From NCBI RefSeq assembly GCF_011044495.1, contig NZ_CP049143.1:7440001-7504000 (forward strand): 64,000 nt of DNA. The letters run 5' to 3'. Source of the DNA: Roseimicrobium sp. ORNL1. GTDB lineage: Bacteria; Verrucomicrobiota; Verrucomicrobiia; Verrucomicrobiales; Verrucomicrobiaceae. The notes under the pieces are model-generated. The model did no database searches. It saw only the letters and a list, made by a program, of their open reading frames with translations, and was not told the origin of the DNA. Position 1 is the first letter of the stretch; every line of letters begins with the position of its first letter. The position numbers and the translations under genes are program-made. This document shows positions 45,157-64,000 of this stretch, in pieces.

Positions 45157-45930
45157 CTACACCCACTTCTCCGCCAGCGAGTACCCCAGTCCGCGGTGCG
45201 TGACGATGGGCTCCACTTCGTTGCGTACGGTCTTCATCTTGGCACGCAGGGACTTCACATGGGCATCCACGGTGCGCTCCATGGCGGCCTCTGGTTCGTC
45301 GCTCGCATGCTCCATGAGCTGGGCGCGGCTGAAGACACGGCCGGGATGCTTGGCAAACGTTTGCAGCAGCCGGTACTCGTAGCGGGAAAGCGGCAGCACC
45401 TCGCCGAAGTAACGGATCTGGCAACGGGTCTCATCCACGGACACCGGGGTGGTATCTCCCTGAGATGACGACAATGCAGCGGCTGGAGCAGAGTCTTCCG
45501 TGGACGAAGCAGCAGTAGCAGACGACGGCGCAGCAGGTGCGCTCTTCGGCCGATGATCTGCCCGGCGCAAGACAGCACGCACACGCGCGGTGAGCTCTCG
45601 CGGGCTGAAGGGTTTGCAGATGTAATCATCGCCCCCTATCTCCAAGCCGACCACACGGTCTAGTTCTGACGAGCGCGCGGTGAGAAAGATCACCGGCACA
45701 TCCTTGAGGAGCCGCAGCTCACGGCACAACTCGAAGCCTGTGGTATCCGGCAGCCCGACGTCCAGCACAGCCAGGGCGAAGTCCTCCGCCTCTACGCGGG
45801 CCAGCGCGTCTGCACCTGTGCTGCACGCACAGGGGGCAAATCCCTCCGACTCGAGCGAGTACACAATGTTGTCCGCAATGGACGGCTCGTCCTCGACGAT
45901 CAAGATGCGTGGGCGGGCCGTGGGAAGCAT
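45157..45930 (-). CDS. creB: CreB-like OmpR-family response regulator
   Basis: 257 residues from MLPTARPRILIVEDE. Receiver domain 8-125 with Asp57 (AVLDVGLPD) as phosphoacceptor and Lys106 in KPFSP; C-terminal winged helix about 165-257 with LSRYEYRLLQTFAKHPGRVFS and THRGLGYSLAEKW. The receiver (DVGLPDTTGFELC, FLTARSSELDRVVGLEIGGDDY) and the TVDAHVKSLRAKM/THRGLGYSL end are close to enterobacterial CreB. Between the domains is an unusual ~35-residue Ala/Ser/Pro-rich linker (129-163). It is the last gene of the CreD-containing operon, and four cre-tag half-sites lie upstream of that operon. Confidence 0.88.
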   Translation of the reverse strand: MLPTARPRILIVEDEPSIADNIVYSLESEGFAPCACSTGADALARVEAEDFALAVLDVGLPDTTGFELCRELRLLKDVPVIFLTARSSELDRVVGLEIGGDDYICKPFSPRELTARVRAVLRRADHRPKSAPAAPSSATAASSTEDSAPAAALSSSQGDTTPVSVDETRCQIRYFGEVLPLSRYEYRLLQTFAKHPGRVFSRAQLMEHASDEPEAAMERTVDAHVKSLRAKMKTVRNEVEPIVTHRGLGYSLAEKWV

Positions 45931-45986
45931 GACAGAGGAAGGTGGATGAAGTGCAGGAAACAGCGTCATTGCATTGATGATCGAAG

Positions 45987-46400
45987 TCAGGCTTCGGGCA
46001 AGAGTTCCGTGTGATAACCGTCAAACTCGGTGGGCGAGCCGGTCCACGGGCGGGTCTCCACGAGGCGGGGCGGCTTTCCAGGACTGGACCACGTGGTCAC
46101 ATAGACGATTCCGTTGTCGGCAAAGTAGTAGTGGCAGTCCAGATGCAGCACGAGGTGGGTGACGCGCGTGCAGCCGTGCTGACGGATGACCTTGAGATGT
46201 GCCGCCTGCTGGAGCACGTCGAGATTCTGCGACACGGCCTCAAATGCTGGCGGCGCTTCCTCCTGCATCACCAGACCCATCACGGGATACTCAAGATCAA
46301 GGCCCACAGCCGGCGGACGCACCACGTCGTGCTTCAGGAACGTTCGCGTGGAAACCAGAACGCCCAGGATGAGGGCGAGCAGTATCAGGATCCATCTCAT
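45987..46400 (-). CDS. Small membrane-anchored protein of the Cre operon
   Basis: 137 residues: one N-terminal helix (MRWILILLALILGVLVS) and a periplasmic domain of ~115 residues with no known family. It is 16 bp downstream of the four-helix protein and 56 bp upstream of creB on the same strand. By context, it belongs to the Cre effector set. Confidence 0.6.
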   Translation of the reverse strand: MRWILILLALILGVLVSTRTFLKHDVVRPPAVGLDLEYPVMGLVMQEEAPPAFEAVSQNLDVLQQAAHLKVIRQHGCTRVTHLVLHLDCHYYFADNGIVYVTTWSSPGKPPRLVETRPWTGSPTEFDGYHTELLPEA

Positions 46401-46416
46401 AGAAACAAGGTCCTTC

Positions 46417-46827
46417 CTAGGATGAAGGAATCAGCGTAGTGCGCGGCAGCCGCAACTTGGGGAAGCGCTCCATCGCCAACTGCACCGCTCGATAGGCCAG
46501 CAACGCCACCAAAAGCCCGCCAAACGCGCCCGTCGCTCCACCCATAACGAGTATCACACCATGATGGGATATCGCCGGCCAAACGTGGGTAAGGGTCAGC
46601 GCCGTCACCGCTCCCATCATGGCCCCGGACAGTACGCCCAATTGCACAAAGAAGGCCCGTACGCCTGCCAGCGCGTTCCCACTGGAGAAACCCACAAGGA
46701 CGGAAATGGCCAGCACGCTGACCATGAGCATGGCAAAGGCAATCACGCAGAGAATCACGGCTGCCACCGCTGCCGCCGCCAACACTGCCAGAGCGATGAA
46801 GATGATGATGAGGTGGGGAATGTCCAT
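46417..46827 (-). CDS. Four-helix membrane protein of the Cre operon
   Basis: 136 residues from MDIPHLIIIFIALAVLA (Met at 46839 is an alternative). Four hydrophobic stretches: 4-45 (two helices), 58-80 and 88-115; a short basic C-terminus (RFPKLRLPR) faces the cytoplasm. It has no recognised family. It lies 27 bp after the second creD gene and 16 bp before the next gene, all co-directional. Confidence 0.6.
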   Translation of the reverse strand: MDIPHLIIIFIALAVLAAAAVAAVILCVIAFAMLMVSVLAISVLVGFSSGNALAGVRAFFVQLGVLSGAMMGAVTALTLTHVWPAISHHGVILVMGGATGAFGGLLVALLAYRAVQLAMERFPKLRLPRTTLIPSS

Positions 46828-46854
46828 GGGTATCCACAAGTAGAGGCACGATCA

Positions 46855-48096
46855 TCAGGTCGATACGGGCGCAGGCATGGGTCCGTTCTTGGGTTTACTG
46901 CCGCCCAGGAGGGTCTCACGCCCATAACGGAACACCTCCTCCCAATTCACCTTTGCCGTGGCAATCATCAACAGTGCAAGCGTGGCCACCGCGGTGATGG
47001 TGAGTGTGAGACCGGTGAAGCCATCAAAGAAGAAGCTGTAGCTGAAGAGCACCATGTAGGCGAACTGCGCCGTCACCGCAATGATGCTGATCGACTTTCC
47101 CGCCACCGCGTGAAGGTAGCCGCTCACCATCACCAGCGAGATCAACGCAGCGATGACGAAGGCCACGTGCAACGGCATCTGATCGCCCAGATACGCCAGC
47201 AACAGGTGGAACGTGAAGAACCCCGCCGCCAGGAACGCATACGTCATGGGATGGAGATTGATGCCACGCAACATGCTCGTGACCACCAGCACGCCAAAGA
47301 AGAGGACAAGCGACACCGGGGCAAAGAAGGTGATGCGCGCAATGACCGGGCCGGCATTCAGCAGCTTCGGCATGTCCACGGCGATGTCCCGTGCATCGAT
47401 GGTATCGGTGTAGTTCCACGCCAGGTCCATGCCTTCTCCCTTGGTCACGGGTTCCTCCTTCGATGGCGAAGTCGCGCCCACAGGATAGCTCACATCAGCG
47501 AAGTCCGTCACCATGGTCAGGCTGAAATTCTTCACCCGGGTACCCTGGGGAAAGGTGTAGGACCAGCGGTCCAGACCACGCGCATTGTAACGCACCGTGA
47601 GCGGCACCGTGGTGCCGGCGGGAATCAGGGTCACTGTTTCCACCATGCCGTTGTGCGGCGCGACGTCCGTCGTCTTGCCTTCGCCCAGCTGGAAGGCGAA
47701 GTTGTCATAGCTGGTGTCCTTCGTGGGCAGGGACAGTTGCACGCGCACATTGCGTGCGCTCGCCGCGGTGTTGGTGATTTCATAGCGCGCGGAGAACTCC
47801 ACGTCATACGTGCGGTGCCAGAGCAGCCCGCGTTTCTTGGGTTCATACTTGAGGCGCGCGTCCACCTTGGATGACGCAGGCAGCATGACTTCCGCCTGTC
47901 CCGAGCCTGAGACACTGTCCCCCAGAAGCACCAGATGCGGCTGCGCCAGCCCCGGCCCCCACACCTGCCGCACCTCGCTCCCCATGCGCGAAGCGGAAGC
48001 CCGCGCACGCTGGTGCAACGTGGCGCCCAGCACGAACCACGCAAACGTGGCTGCGCCGGTGATGGCGAGAATGCTGAAGAGACGTGACGAGGTCAT
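46855..48096 (-). CDS. creD: CreD-like inner-membrane protein (copy 2)
   Basis: 413 residues. One N-terminal helix (RLFSILAITGAATFAWFVLG), a periplasmic beta-rich domain of ~230 residues (KRGLLWHRTYDVEFSARYE is typical), then five or so C-terminal helices with HPMTYAFLAAGFFTFHLLLAY, and FSYSFFFDGFTGLTLTI. This is the CreD architecture and C-terminal signature of E. coli, where CreD is induced by the CreBC system and increases colicin and envelope resistance. It is about 50% shorter in its periplasmic part than some CreD proteins. A second, similar copy directly precedes it by 43 bp. Confidence 0.88.
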   Translation of the reverse strand: MTSSRLFSILAITGAATFAWFVLGATLHQRARASASRMGSEVRQVWGPGLAQPHLVLLGDSVSGSGQAEVMLPASSKVDARLKYEPKKRGLLWHRTYDVEFSARYEITNTAASARNVRVQLSLPTKDTSYDNFAFQLGEGKTTDVAPHNGMVETVTLIPAGTTVPLTVRYNARGLDRWSYTFPQGTRVKNFSLTMVTDFADVSYPVGATSPSKEEPVTKGEGMDLAWNYTDTIDARDIAVDMPKLLNAGPVIARITFFAPVSLVLFFGVLVVTSMLRGINLHPMTYAFLAAGFFTFHLLLAYLGDQMPLHVAFVIAALISLVMVSGYLHAVAGKSISIIAVTAQFAYMVLFSYSFFFDGFTGLTLTITAVATLALLMIATAKVNWEEVFRYGRETLLGGSKPKNGPMPAPVST

Positions 48097-48139: not shown

Positions 48140-49378
48140 TCACGCAGTAGCAGGGCGACCTCCCGAAGGAGGTGCAGGCGGCGGCATCACGGGCGGGTTG
48201 GATGCAGACCGCTTCTTTTCAGCGAGCTGTTCCGCCCAGTTCACCTTCGCCGTGAACTTCATCAGCAGGGCCAGTGTGAAAATGGCTCCGATGGTGATGG
48301 TGATGCCCGTCATGCCATCAAAGAAGAAGCTGTAGCTGAAGAGCACCATGTACGCGAACTGCGCTGGCACTGCGACCATGAGCATCTTCTTTCCACCCAC
48401 GGCCATGATGTATCCGCCCACCAGTAGCAGGGAGACCACCGCCGAAATCACAAAGCTCAGATGCAACGGCACCAGGTCCACGAGGTAGGCAAACAGGAGC
48501 TGGAAGGCAAAGCAGCCCGCCGCGAGGAAGAAGTAGTTCATGGGATGCAGGTTGATGCCCAACACCACCCCCATGAGCACCAGCACCGTGAAGAAGAACA
48601 CCAGGGACACCGGCGCGAAGAACGCAATGCGCGACGCCACGGGGCCGGCATTCAGCACCTTCGGCATATCCATTCCAATCGCGGGCGCAGAGAGCACATC
48701 CGGATAGCTCCAGGTGTAGACGTGCTTGATCTCATCTCGCGATGTGGGTGAACCGGTGCCGTTGGGGAAGTTGATCTCGGCAAAGTCTGTCTGCATCACC
48801 AGCTCAAAGCCCTGCACGCGGCTCGCATCCGGGAAGGCATACCGCCAGGTCTCCATGCCCCGGGATTCATAAGAGACCTTCAAAGGGGCTGTTCCTTTGG
48901 CCGGTACCGTGAGCGCTTCCGTGATGACGCCAGCCTTCGGAACCGCACGACGGAGCGACTCATCCCCCAGGGTAAAGACGAAGTTTGTATAGCTCGCTTC
49001 CTCCGAGGGGAGCTGATACTGCACGTAGATCGTCTGCGGAATCGGCGTGGGATTGGTAAACTGATATTCCGCGTTGAACTGCACCGAATAGGTGCGGTGC
49101 CAGAGCAGGCCACGCTTCTTCGGCTCCGAAGACAGGTTGACGGTGATCTTGCTTGAGTCCGGTTGCAGCGTCACCTTGCGATTGTTTCCCGTAGGCGCGT
49201 GATAGAAGGCGGAGGGGTGAAGCTGCTTCTGCGAAGCGCCCCAGACGGCCGCCACTTCATTGCCCATGTCGCTACCGGACTCCTGAGTGCGCACTTGGAG
49301 TGTGGTCCCGAGAATGCCCCACGCCACAGCAGTGCAGAGCGTGATCAGGGCGATGGTGAAGATGCGAAGGACAGTCAT
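48140..49378 (-). CDS. creD: CreD-like inner-membrane protein (copy 1)
   Basis: 412 residues from MTVLRIFTIALITLC; ten upstream codons are open. N-terminal helix, periplasmic domain including PKKRGLLWHRTYSVQFNAEY, and a C-terminal helix bundle with LGINLHPMNYFFLAAGCFAF, LLFAYLVDLVPLHLSF and LFSYSFFFDGMTGITITIGA. The last two motifs are almost identical to the CreD family signature. It and copy 2 are about equal in length and share all motifs, so they are tandem duplicates, perhaps forming a hetero-oligomer. Its start is 56 bp after the stop of the large exported protein gene. Confidence 0.9.
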   Translation of the reverse strand: MTVLRIFTIALITLCTAVAWGILGTTLQVRTQESGSDMGNEVAAVWGASQKQLHPSAFYHAPTGNNRKVTLQPDSSKITVNLSSEPKKRGLLWHRTYSVQFNAEYQFTNPTPIPQTIYVQYQLPSEEASYTNFVFTLGDESLRRAVPKAGVITEALTVPAKGTAPLKVSYESRGMETWRYAFPDASRVQGFELVMQTDFAEINFPNGTGSPTSRDEIKHVYTWSYPDVLSAPAIGMDMPKVLNAGPVASRIAFFAPVSLVFFFTVLVLMGVVLGINLHPMNYFFLAAGCFAFQLLFAYLVDLVPLHLSFVISAVVSLLLVGGYIMAVGGKKMLMVAVPAQFAYMVLFSYSFFFDGMTGITITIGAIFTLALLMKFTAKVNWAEQLAEKKRSASNPPVMPPPAPPSGGRPATA

Positions 49379-49433
49379 GGCAGGATAATGCGAGTGGTAA
49401 GGTGACAAGAAGGTGGACGTGTGCTTGGTCTGT

Positions 49434-51137
49434 TCATTCGAGACCGCGCTTGCGATAGAAGAGTGCGATCTGAGGGCGCTCGTTGCGGCACAGCTTCTTG
49501 ATCAAGCTGAGGGTGGAAGCATTGCCGCTTGCGCTCGTGTCCGTCGCGAACTCCACATTCCCCTCCGCACCGACGGCTTCATATCCCTCTGGAATCTCCA
49601 CGTTCCAGAGCACTTCGTGAATGAAGAGCGGCGTCTGCACGAGCTCGAGCGCGGACTGGCCCTCCACGGCATCCAGCTTGCCCTTCACTTCGGTGTAGGA
49701 GAGCTGCACCTCGCTCTTGCCGTTGCTGGCAAGAGGCACCTCCAGCGCACCATCCGCACGCACAATGGGGTTCACCGGAGTGTTGTTCACCGAACACTTC
49801 AGCAGCGTGCTCTTCTCCGGCAGCTTCACCACCCAGCGCTCGGGCTGCTGATGTTCGATCTCCACCTTCGTCTCCGACAGCACGGACCCATCCGCCACGA
49901 GCTTGGTGACACACGTGCTCTTCGTGATCACCGCAGACGCGGTATCCACGCGTGGCAGCAACTTCGCCGCCACGGTGACTTCGGCTGCGCCTGCCACCGT
50001 GCCAAATTCTGGAGCCTTGCACTCCTCGGCGATCCACTTGGACAGACGCACCGGGGACACCGGCGACTGCATGTCCGGCGCACTGAATTCCACGCCGGCC
50101 TGCAGCGCGAACATGAAGAGTGACTTCGTCTTGTTCCCGCCGGCTACGGCGGGAGCACGCAGTTCCCAAGAGGTGGCGAGTGGAAGCTGGGGAAGCGCGT
50201 ACGTCAGGTGGAACTCACGCTCCATGATGTCGCGTGTCTGCCAGCGCAGGCGCAGCTCGGCACCGCCATCGGCGTTGCGCACCACTTTCCAGTCGCGGAT
50301 GTCCTCCGCTTTGGAAAGGGTGACGCCACGCACATTCGCTGGCAGGACCAGTGTCGCTTCGAGCGCCGAGCCATTCACGGCGAGCAGCCGCACACGCGCG
50401 TGGTGTTTGATTTCACCATCGCCTTCGACAGCCAGCACTTCGTTTTGCACCGTCCACTCGCTCGCTTGCAACGGCGGCGGCGGTGGATCGGGCTGCGGCT
50501 CGGAAGCAGCATCCACCAGACTCAGCACGCTCTGCCCGCCCTTGAGGGGGAGCGCGAGCTGCATGGAGCCATCCGGCGCGGCATCCACGCGCTGCTCACC
50601 CAGCTTGAGCAATTGTTTCCCCGCCACGCCGTTTACCTTCAGGGTGGCCATGGCGCTTGGCGCAGATTGCAGATCGAGGAAAGGACCACTTCCCAGGGAC
50701 GGCAGTGCGGTCTCCACAAACCGTACCTTCACGGAGGCGGCTCCCTCCGTGTTGGTGAGCAGGAAGAGATCGTCACCCTCCACCAGCAGTCGCGCATCCG
50801 CAGGCTCCACACCGGCCACGGCGGGGCCTGCGCCCATGAGGCGGATGCGTTCCCAGCGCTTGCCGAAGGACTCCACCTTGAAGTCCGCCTCCAGCTTCAG
50901 CTTGCCGGTGGAGACATCCGCGCGGAAATCGGCGGCCAGCAGCGCGCCCGGCGGCGGCTCCTTCGCATCGACGCCGTGGGCGGTCTCCCACAGCTTGCGC
51001 AGCTCCGAATAGGGGATGCGCACCTCGGCATTGTCCAACGAAGGAAGAGGTGATGTCGTTGGCACCTGCCCCGTGGAGGTGGATGTCCATGCCAGGGAGG
51101 CGGTGCAGACGAGGAGGCAAAGGCGTGCGGGAATCAT
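49434..51137 (-). CDS. Large exported protein heading the Cre operon
   Basis: 567 residues with a signal peptide (1-23, ending STGQ). The mature start has VRIPYSELRKLWETAHG, a motif typical of large planctomycete/verrucomicrobial periplasmic proteins; the rest is beta-rich without membrane segments, and includes a low-complexity Pro run (PQPDPPPPPLQ) about residue 215. There is no C-terminal anchor. No enzyme motif is visible. As the first gene after the cre-tag array it is expected to be the most strongly controlled product of CreB and may be the periplasmic partner of the two CreD proteins. Confidence 0.7.
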   Translation of the reverse strand: MIPARLCLLVCTASLAWTSTSTGQVPTTSPLPSLDNAEVRIPYSELRKLWETAHGVDAKEPPPGALLAADFRADVSTGKLKLEADFKVESFGKRWERIRLMGAGPAVAGVEPADARLLVEGDDLFLLTNTEGAASVKVRFVETALPSLGSGPFLDLQSAPSAMATLKVNGVAGKQLLKLGEQRVDAAPDGSMQLALPLKGGQSVLSLVDAASEPQPDPPPPPLQASEWTVQNEVLAVEGDGEIKHHARVRLLAVNGSALEATLVLPANVRGVTLSKAEDIRDWKVVRNADGGAELRLRWQTRDIMEREFHLTYALPQLPLATSWELRAPAVAGGNKTKSLFMFALQAGVEFSAPDMQSPVSPVRLSKWIAEECKAPEFGTVAGAAEVTVAAKLLPRVDTASAVITKSTCVTKLVADGSVLSETKVEIEHQQPERWVVKLPEKSTLLKCSVNNTPVNPIVRADGALEVPLASNGKSEVQLSYTEVKGKLDAVEGQSALELVQTPLFIHEVLWNVEIPEGYEAVGAEGNVEFATDTSASGNASTLSLIKKLCRNERPQIALFYRKRGLE

Positions 51138-51180
51138 GGCAGAGGCGGAGTGAACAACACTCCCACTCTGCCGGGCACGC

Positions 51181-51218
51181 GTGAAAGCCGCGTGAAACGG
51201 TCGTGAATTGACCGTGAA
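51181..51218 (-). promoter_or_regulatory. Array of four cre-tag half sites (GTGAA every 11 bp)
   Basis: GTGAA occurs at 51181, 51192, 51203 and 51214, each separated by exactly six bases. On the coding (minus) strand this is TTCAC-N6 repeated, giving three overlapping TTCAC-N6-TTCAC elements, the published cre/blr tag bound by CreB-type regulators in Enterobacteria and Aeromonas. The array ends 44 bp upstream of the start of the large exported protein at 51137. A fifth GTGAA at 51150 is out of phase. The sequence pattern is certain; its binding by the CreB at 45157 is inferred. Confidence 0.8.
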
Positions 51219-51251: not shown

Positions 51252-52442
51252 CTAGCTGCGCTTCCTGCCGGAGGCGATGGGCATGATGCCGAAGTCCCTC
51301 GCTTCCTGGATATTGATGAGCTGGTAGTCCGTCTCCTCTTCGTCGCCGAACTTCTCGGCGTTCTCCTCGAGATCCTCGTTCGCAGTCGAGATGGCGCTCT
51401 TGAAGGTCTTCAGCGAGGTGGCAAATTCCTTCTTCTTCAGCTTCGCTTCCATACTCGGCAGTTCCTTGAGCGGCTTGAGCTTGTCGTTCCCCAGCATGGT
51501 GGTCTCCAGCCCCACGGTCGTTTCTCCCTCCGCATCGGTGTCGAAGGCGAGGTAGCAATGTCCCGGCACCATCACGAGGTAGGAAGTGATGCCAATCTTG
51601 CGCAGCAGGGAGGCCATCAGCACGGAGCCGTCCACACAGTTGGCCTGGGTGGCATCGAGGCTCTCGTCCAGGAAGCGCACGGTCTGGCAGTAGACCGTCT
51701 TCGCGCCCGGGGTGGTGGAAATGTCCGAATAGCGGATGCCCTTCCGCTGGAGCACATGCCAGATGGCAAAGACCTGGGTCAGCACCTGCTCCGAGTCCTC
51801 CGATTGGTAGCCGGTGAAGGAATCCACCAGTCCGGTCTGCAAGGCTTCCTGCAGGATCTTGTCGATCCAGGGGTGGTTTTCATTCACATAGGCGGCGAAC
51901 ATCCAGGAGAGATCCAGGGACTCGGCTTCCTCGCCATGATCCACCCAGAAGGGGCAGTCGTTCAGGCCATGCATGGTGACGATTTCATTCCGCTCTCCGA
52001 GCACCGCGCCGTTCAGGCTCACCTTGAAGGTCAGGTTCACCGGCTTCTGCTCCCGGATCTGGTGGAGCACCTCATAGTTGAAGACGGCCTTCGGGGTGAT
52101 GTAGAGGTCCTCGGTGGCCTTCTTGATTTTCACTTCCACCTGGGAGGGCTTGAGCCAGCCGTCACCCTGCACTTCGACCTTCAGCACGGAATTGGCGGGT
52201 ACATTCGAGACATTCACGCCGAACCACCCATTGGGGTCTCCGAAGGTGGGGGCATACTCTTCGCCATCTTCATCCACCTCAGCCTCAGCCTGCCAGTCCA
52301 CCGTGGCGGTGGCAATCAGGAGACTGGGGAAGACGTCCCCGCCGGTTTCCAACCAGGGTTCCCACTTCACGGGCTTGGCAGCCTGAAGGCTGCAGGCAAC
52401 AAAGAGGAGACTGGCGGCAAGGGAGGCCCGTAAGACTTTCAT
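51252..52442 (-). CDS. Exported transglutaminase-like protein
   Basis: 396 residues from MKVLRASLAASLLFVACSLQ, a signal peptide ending near QAA; the frame runs 53 codons further upstream. The transglutaminase-like core is at about 255-320: NCVDGSVLMASLLRKIGI (catalytic Cys269) and MVPGHCYLAFDTD (His295), with Glu313 in GLETTML at the usual Asp position. Family members are periplasmic proteases or peptidases. It is upstream of the cre-tag array, so probably not in the CreB operon, but it is co-directional. The region 40-250 is unassigned. Confidence 0.72.
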   Translation of the reverse strand: MKVLRASLAASLLFVACSLQAAKPVKWEPWLETGGDVFPSLLIATATVDWQAEAEVDEDGEEYAPTFGDPNGWFGVNVSNVPANSVLKVEVQGDGWLKPSQVEVKIKKATEDLYITPKAVFNYEVLHQIREQKPVNLTFKVSLNGAVLGERNEIVTMHGLNDCPFWVDHGEEAESLDLSWMFAAYVNENHPWIDKILQEALQTGLVDSFTGYQSEDSEQVLTQVFAIWHVLQRKGIRYSDISTTPGAKTVYCQTVRFLDESLDATQANCVDGSVLMASLLRKIGITSYLVMVPGHCYLAFDTDAEGETTVGLETTMLGNDKLKPLKELPSMEAKLKKKEFATSLKTFKSAISTANEDLEENAEKFGDEEETDYQLINIQEARDFGIMPIASGRKRS

Positions 52443-52510
52443 GAAGGTATTCTCTGGACGCTGAACGCAGTCGCAGGAATTTTTCAGACCGCAATTCCAA
52501 ACGTGCAAAA

Positions 52511-53131
52511 ATGAACTGGCTGGCCCACGTGCACCTCTCTCCCCCAGATGTCGAGTTTCAGCTCGGCAATCTGCTCGCGGACGTGCTGCGCCGTGAGCCA
52601 CGCGGGGTGATGGGACCCTCCTTCGAGGCCGGGCGCTGCTGCCATGCGGCGATCGACCGTTTCACGGACACGCATCCCATCGTGCACCGCAGTAAGATGC
52701 GCATCATCCCCAGCCATCGCCGCTACGCCGGGATCCTGGTGGATATGTTTTATGATCATTTCCTGGCGAAGAACTGGGAACAATTTCACGAGTCCACGCT
52801 GCGTGACTTCACGCGGCAGTTCCAAGCCGAGGCCACCAGTCGCAGGCACCAGCTTCCAGAGGATGGTGCGGATTTGATCGAGTACCTCGTGCGCGAGGAT
52901 CGGCTCTACTCGTATCGCAAGCTGGATGGCATCGAGGCAGCATTGCAACGCATGTCCCTGCGGCTTACTGCACGCTGGAAGAAGACGGTACGCATGCAGG
53001 ATGCGGTGGCGCCGGTTCGATTGCACGGTGAAGAAATGGAAAAAGATTTTCTCGAATTCTTCCCCGAGCTCATGGCTTATGTCGCCTCCGGTGAATGGTG
53101 GAGTGCGCGCAGTGCGCGTGATGCGGCTTAA
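52511..53131 (+). CDS. acpH: Acyl carrier protein phosphodiesterase
   Basis: 206 residues, the family's usual length, beginning with MNWLAHVHLS, and with LGNLLADVLR (Asp24 in the HD-type metal site), HAAIDRFTDTHPIVHRSK and GILVDMFYDHFLAKNW, all classic AcpH motifs. It removes the 4'-phosphopantetheine arm from holo-ACP. It stands alone, divergent from the transglutaminase-like gene, and is followed by a ~370-bp repeat-bearing gap. Confidence 0.93.
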   Translation: MNWLAHVHLSPPDVEFQLGNLLADVLRREPRGVMGPSFEAGRCCHAAIDRFTDTHPIVHRSKMRIIPSHRRYAGILVDMFYDHFLAKNWEQFHESTLRDFTRQFQAEATSRRHQLPEDGADLIEYLVREDRLYSYRKLDGIEAALQRMSLRLTARWKKTVRMQDAVAPVRLHGEEMEKDFLEFFPELMAYVASGEWWSARSARDAA

Positions 53132-63071: not shown

Positions 63072-64000
63072 TCACGCAGGAATGCTGAACACTGCCCGCG
63101 CGCCCTTGCCACCATCGCGATTCTCCAGCTCCACGGTTCCCTGATGCAAGGCCGCCGCTTCCTTCACGAAACACAATCCAAGACCGCTGCTCTTCTTTCC
63201 ATTGTGAGGCCGCGGCAGGGAGTAGAAGCGCTCGAACACGCGGCCCTTCGCATAGTCCGGCAAGCCCGGCCCCTCGTCCTCCACGACGAAACATGCGCGA
63301 TCATCCACCGTCTTAAGCCCGATGGAAACGACCCCGCCCTCAGGTGAAAAATCGACAGCGTTCTGCGCAAGATTCGTGAAGGCGAGCTGCAGCAGGAAGG
63401 CATCCCCACGCACCTGCACGCCATCCTGCACCCAGCAGTCGAGCTTGAGTCCACGCTGGGCCAGTGGCGCGGTGAAGTGGTCACACACTTCGCGGGCGAT
63501 GGCGCTGAGATCCACTTTCGCCGGCTCATCGAGGGCTTTTTTGTTCTCCAATGAGGCAAGTGAAAGGAGTCGCTCCAGCAGATCCTGCAAGCGAAGAGAT
63601 TCCACCTGGATGTTGCGGAGGAAGCGCACCCGCTGCGCGCCCGGCATGGTTTCCTCCTGCATGAGTTCCGCGGCGCCGCGAATCGCGGCCACCGGGCTCT
63701 TCAGCTCATGCGTGAGCGTTTGCACATAGTGCTCCACACTTTCGCGATTTTCGAGGGAGTCGCGCATCTTTTCGAAGGCGGTGCCCAGGGTCTTCATCTC
63801 CACACCGTGCAACTTCGGCACGGGTGGACGCTCCCCACGCGTGATGGACTCCGCATAGTCCGTGAGTCGGCGGATGGGACGTGTGGTCCAACGCGCCAGC
63901 AGGAAGGACCCCAGCACCATGCACAGCACCAGGGAGCCGATGGTGCGGATGAGCCATGCCTTTGTCTCATCCCTGAACTTGAAGCTACTCCTCTGGGGCT
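63072..64000 (-). CDS. creC: CreC-like sensor histidine kinase (N-terminus outside window)
   Basis: About 310 residues visible; the frame is open to the right edge, so the sensor part and first helix are missing. A membrane helix (LVLCMVLGSFLLARW) precedes a HAMP segment (RPIRRLTDYAESITRG); the H box is YVQTLTHELKSPVAAIRGAA; then NLAQNAVDF, VVEDEGPGLPDYAKGRVFERFYSL and KSSGLGLCFV. These match E. coli CreC unusually closely. Its likely partner is the CreB-like regulator 17 kb away in this window. A GTG at 63929 is not the true start. Confidence 0.85.
   Translation of the reverse strand, partial: PQRSSFKFRDETKAWLIRTIGSLVLCMVLGSFLLARWTTRPIRRLTDYAESITRGERPPVPKLHGVEMKTLGTAFEKMRDSLENRESVEHYVQTLTHELKSPVAAIRGAAELMQEETMPGAQRVRFLRNIQVESLRLQDLLERLLSLASLENKKALDEPAKVDLSAIAREVCDHFTAPLAQRGLKLDCWVQDGVQVRGDAFLLQLAFTNLAQNAVDFSPEGGVVSIGLKTVDDRACFVVEDEGPGLPDYAKGRVFERFYSLPRPHNGKKSSGLGLCFVKEAAALHQGTVELENRDGGKGARAVFSIPA

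Follow-up and report, generated by a model that had tools for sequence, protein, structure and literature searches.

What reads the four evenly spaced copies of GTGAA in front of a creD-type operon in a verrucomicrobial genome, and does their reader switch the operon on or off? The window analyzed herein is a 64-kb stretch of DNA comprising bases 7440001-7504000 of a single-contig genome of 7.96 Mb, which, as judged from named relatives sharing CreD homology, lies within or near the family Verrucomicrobiaceae. On the plus strand of this window, GTGAA occupies positions 51181-51185, 51192-51196, 51203-51207 and 51214-51218 at an exact 11-bp period, precisely as an earlier note on this DNA had reported, and the coding strand, TTCACGGTCAATTCACGACCGTTTCACGCGGCTTTCAC, carries four head-to-tail TTCAC half sites forming the claimed three overlapping TTCAC-N6-TTCAC motifs. 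The pattern GTGAA-N6-GTGAA occurred three times in the window, each time within the array, while dinucleotide shuffles of the window (n=100) gave a mean of 0.11 pairs and never reached three. The motif had been equated with the published CreB/BlrA recognition word, and it is indeed the same as the cre/blr-tag TTCACnnnnnnTTCAC (TTCAC-N6-TTCAC) of CreB from E. coli and BlrA from Aeromonas (PMC3660660). As expected for this direct repeat, which resides in the promoter regions of the Cre regulon, the predicted CreB box array (51181..51218, minus strand), which is kept in relatives, precedes its operon directly: the downstream ATG begins at 51137, and thus 43 bp separate the array from the start codon. 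Genome-wide (7.96 Mb), the exact pair was found 37 times versus 11 for a reversed control pattern, and was therefore dropped as too noisy a marker on its own, while tandem arrays of at least three half sites were present at four places only. Across 68 family genomes, 49 exact triples were counted versus three for the control.

The operon runs on the minus strand. Its first gene (49434..51137) encodes a secreted, beta-rich protein of 567 aa whose family is unknown, no Pfam or NCBIfam match being returned by the profile search; its homologues sit ahead of creD in many Verrucomicrobiota, making it a constant partner of CreD. The structure model was all-beta (pLDDT 84, pTM 0.40), and its best Foldseek matches were to Ost1/ribophorin I, a subunit of oligosaccharyltransferase (E 4e-11, with a TM of only 0.2). 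The following two genes encode membrane proteins 1 (48140..49408; the ATG at 49378 is probably the conserved start) and 2 (46855..48096), which are 50% identical to each other and matched Pfam CreD in their C-terminal part only, with 37.4 and 51.5 bits, respectively (cut-off 23). Since both missed the NCBIfam CreD equivalog cut-off (39 and 52 bits versus 275), we refer to them as CreD-like rather than strict CreD proteins. They are followed by genes for a small membrane protein of 140 aa (46417..46839) and a small protein of 137 aa (45987..46400), whose homologues in the sister genome are 64% and 65% identical, respectively; an ORF of 152 aa at 46397-46855 was rejected as spurious, the real gene being 46417-46839. 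On the other side of the array, the minus-strand neighbour ORF at 51252-52601 gave a partial match to the NCBIfam 'anti-phage protein ProA' model (102.7 bits, cut-off 1500).

The last gene of the operon (45157..45969) encodes a response regulator with receiver and winged-helix domains (Pfam Response_reg and Trans_reg_C). It had been described as CreB-like, and its score of 303.9 bits against the NCBIfam CreB equivalog (cut-off 273) identifies it as a true CreB orthologue. The window also contains most of a gene for a sensor kinase of 477 aa (63073..64000 in the window, continuing to 64506 outside it, minus strand), the product of which scored 531.9 bits against NCBIfam CreC (cut-off 356), as befits the cognate kinase. 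This creC gene lies 12 kb from the operon and approximately 17 kb from creB; in most relatives, creC is located directly 3' of creB. The gene after creC in this locus (L389) ends in an SHGCIRM motif, which by eye we take to be typical of L,D-transpeptidases.

If the array has a function in this operon, it should be found before creD orthologues in relatives, the test that the earlier note had set, and TTCAY-N6-TTCAY was indeed present upstream of 53 of the 57 loci of named genomes having the pair of the 567-aa protein gene and creD, always on the coding strand and in no case on the opposite one. This result agrees well with the suggestion that the Cre code is shared with a distant phylum. TTCAY ranked first among all 256 NNNNY words at these loci, and its repeats were spaced by gaps of 6 (53 loci), 17 (48) and 28 (30) bases and hardly by any others, in keeping with an 11-bp phase; a set of 43 upstream regions, overlapping in part with the 57, gave the same gaps (32, 28 and 18 loci, respectively) and nearly no others. 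The named relatives, collected by CreD homology, included Verrucomicrobium, Prosthecobacter and Phragmitibacter, several being the same contigs as family members. The loci of Prosthecobacter and its relatives do not count as independent, though their spacer bases vary freely. The arrays in relatives consisted of two to five copies of the half-site consensus TTCA[CT]; because the last base may be C or T, the strict TTCAC triple proved too narrow a criterion for the phylum. CreD homologues were found in 40 of the 68 family genomes, and CreB exceeded the curated cut-off in 54 of the 388 genomes of the phylum and, among 14 control genomes, in E. coli only. The repeat was also found near the cre genes of one Planctomycetota locus (L331) and two Hydrogenedentota loci (L333, L344). 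For the CreB regions outside the family, the exact tag was absent within about 8 kb in 15 of 40, and several of these genomes bear a tag ahead of the VIT operon described below.

The position of the array relative to the promoter proved to be equally constant. A -10-like hexamer, CAGAGT (51165..51170, minus strand; pattern match at 7491165-7491207 of the contig), begins 10 nt past the last half site and would set the putative transcription start. Among 65 arrays, the last half site was followed by a [CGT]A...T hexamer at an offset of 10 nt in 31 and of 9 nt in 21, amounting to 52/65, and other offsets below 20 nt were represented by 0-4 arrays. Outside the family, this rule was obeyed in 14 of 19 arrays versus 8% by chance (p about 4e-12, a value that treats related loci as independent), the hexamers including the canonical TATGTT, TACATT and TACCTT; two further arrays fit if a degenerate extra half site, TTCAA, is counted. 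The full grammar of three half sites, 10 nt and BANNNT occurred 27 times in the 68 genomes and once as the reversed control. At the Prosthecobacter-type loci (L232-L254) and those at the level of the class, the start codon often lies about 7 nt past the hexamer, and hence their mRNAs are probably leaderless. Separately, an imperfect inverted repeat, GGCAGAG-TGGGAGTG...CACTCCGCCTCTGCC, spans 51138-51171 and overlaps the -10 hexamer and leader; it is kept in part in the sister genome and might serve as an additional operator or form a hairpin in the leader.

At class II promoters activated by PhoB, the activator site stands in for the -35 element, and the present array, lying about 10 bp upstream of the -10 hexamer like a Pho box, may work in the same manner. 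Regulators of the OmpR/PhoB type typically use 11-bp head-to-tail arrays, which makes cooperative stacking of dimers, and thus cooperative binding of CreB along the array, plausible; as to the single helix face suggested in the earlier note, however, the 11-bp period drifts slowly with respect to the helical repeat of 10.5 bp per turn.

The same signal delineates a candidate regulon. In the source genome, the full grammar matched at three sites, namely the creD operon, an operon at 3976326 encoding a VIT/vWA PEP-CTERM protein and an exosortase, and a gene at 4078049 for a membrane protein of 187 aa, the sister-genome orthologue of which (69% identity) retains the array. The VIT/vWA surface protein is TIGR03788-like (397 bits, below the cut-off of 552), and the exosortase is closest to XrtQ, likewise below cut-off. 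This VIT-exosortase operon was found in 20 of the 388 genomes, and CreB was present in 13 of these 20 carriers compared with 55/388 overall (p 9e-8). A tag lay directly ahead of the operon in 9 of the 13 carriers with CreB versus one of the seven lacking it; one genome (G112) has the tag ahead of VIT, yet no CreB over the cut-off. In three loci (L250, L254 and L257), creB adjoins the VIT operon. The operons examined included no beta-lactamase target, and a literature search found no link of exosortase/VIT to CreB. Arrays were also noted elsewhere: in two genera (L077, L080 and L087), a conserved gene for a membrane protein of about 440 aa is preceded at about 50 bp by oppositely oriented TTCAC arrays, and the array site is upstream of a gene resembling a MoxR-type ATPase. 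Another locus (L031:3500-9800) contains a tandem series of about eight paralogues of a protein of about 235 aa, one of which is preceded at 50 bp by a three-copy TTCAC array in reverse orientation.

Taken together, we consider it very probable from these sequence comparisons that the array is a CreB binding site serving PhoB-type class II activation of its own operon. In the proposed mechanism, CreC would sense an envelope or metabolic signal and phosphorylate CreB, dimers of which would dock head to tail on one 11-bp half site (TTCAY-N6) after another. With its position 10 nt upstream of CAGAGT, the last half site would substitute for the -35 element, and CreB, acting as a class II activator of the PhoB type, would touch RNA polymerase, thereby switching on the secreted beta-rich protein, the two CreD-like membrane proteins, the two small proteins and CreB itself, whose presence in its own operon would amount to positive autoregulation. 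At other places in the genome, the same module would drive the VIT/vWA PEP-CTERM and exosortase operon and the gene for the small membrane protein of 187 aa.

Alternatively, CreB might bind the array but repress the operon or modulate it both ways. In Stenotrophomonas (S. maltophilia), CreBC lowers creD expression (PMC4689548), and the sign of regulation therefore cannot be assumed; a last half site near the -10 hexamer could moreover block the polymerase. However, the -10 hexamers of this verrucomicrobial group (CAGAGT, CAGGAT and GAGGAT) look weak, and in many lineages the array sits at the -35 position with unchanged spacing, as would be expected for an activator, and thus repression or two-way modulation appears rather unlikely.

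The activator model further presumes that CreB is the reader. Since 11-bp direct repeats are usable by every regulator of the OmpR/PhoB family, the array might be read by PhoB, a CreB paralogue or another member, with the nearby creB being a passenger. Some TTCAC/TTCAY arrays do have other neighbours, and two of them precede operons with OmpR-type regulators that share about 31-33% identity with CreB (L085, L365); regulators related to CreB may thus read the same word. Against this, the Pho box has the half-site consensus TGTCA, and no half site of this type is present in the array, in which all are TTCAC, the published CreB/BlrA word. The recognition helix of the window CreB, ERTVDAHVKSLRAKM, matches that of E. 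coli CreB, DRTVDTHIKTLRAKL, unlike that of PhoB, DRTVDVHIRRLRKAL, and the helices of other verrucomicrobial CreB proteins are close variants of ERTVDAHVKSLRAKM; word and helix together disfavour PhoB as the reader. In Actinobacteria, the helix of the CreB-like protein, KTVDTHVKRLRDKL (KRLRDKL), differs, and there creD is present but the repeat was absent from the three loci with creBC-like genes. Furthermore, the strict triple tracks CreB across the phylum (9/55 genomes with CreB versus 8/333 without, p 1e-4), as do the tags of the VIT promoters, so that a reader other than CreB seems very unlikely. A chance or purely structural repeat, conceivable for half sites of only five bases, is scarcely credible now that the word, phase, strand and distance to the -10 hexamer have been found kept across dozens of genomes, the spacers of which vary freely, and became untenable with the analysis of the 57 upstream loci.

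The regulator and its DNA word, which the literature found in our search records for only a few gammaproteobacteria, appear to be read alike in a distant phylum; for CreBC in Verrucomicrobia, our literature search gave only unrelated community studies. What appears to be new, on these comparisons, is the tandem multimers, the half-site consensus TTCAY, the fixed -10 spacing, the phylum-wide use and the exosortase branch of the regulon. To our knowledge, the exosortase/VIT surface-protein pathway is not part of the gammaproteobacterial Cre regulon. The strict promoter grammar makes the regulon listable from sequence alone, the secreted CreD partner and the exosortase/VIT operon gain a predicted regulator, and CreD gains a much wider comparative base. 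Whether CreBC, with its DNA code unchanged and its promoter geometry fixed, constitutes an old circuit controlling the envelope in Verrucomicrobiota, as well as in some Planctomycetota and Hydrogenedentota, having arrays of up to five half sites and often leaderless mRNAs and coupling creD to the exosortase/VIT pathway, seems to us an evenly balanced question.

Among known systems, the closest is the cre/blr-tag of Gammaproteobacteria, with which the present one has in common the word TTCAC-N6-TTCAC, the regulator family and the target creD; in E. coli, a single such pair was located 77 bp before the creD ATG and is the published tag (PMC3660660). The verrucomicrobial side, belonging to another phylum, differs in its arrays of two to five half sites of consensus TTCAY, in the constant 9-10 nt to the -10 hexamer and in the added VIT/exosortase target. 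The Pho box with PhoB at class II promoters resembles it in having 11-bp head-to-tail direct repeats, the last of which lies about 10 bp upstream of the -10 hexamer and replaces the -35 element, whereas the verrucomicrobial half site is TTCAY instead of TGTCA and the helix is of the CreB type. Finally, the dedicated sortase system of Proteobacteria likewise combines a VIT/vWA surface protein handled by a sorting enzyme with a two-component regulator, but in the verrucomicrobial counterpart the sorting enzyme is an exosortase and the predicted regulator is CreB rather than a dedicated one.
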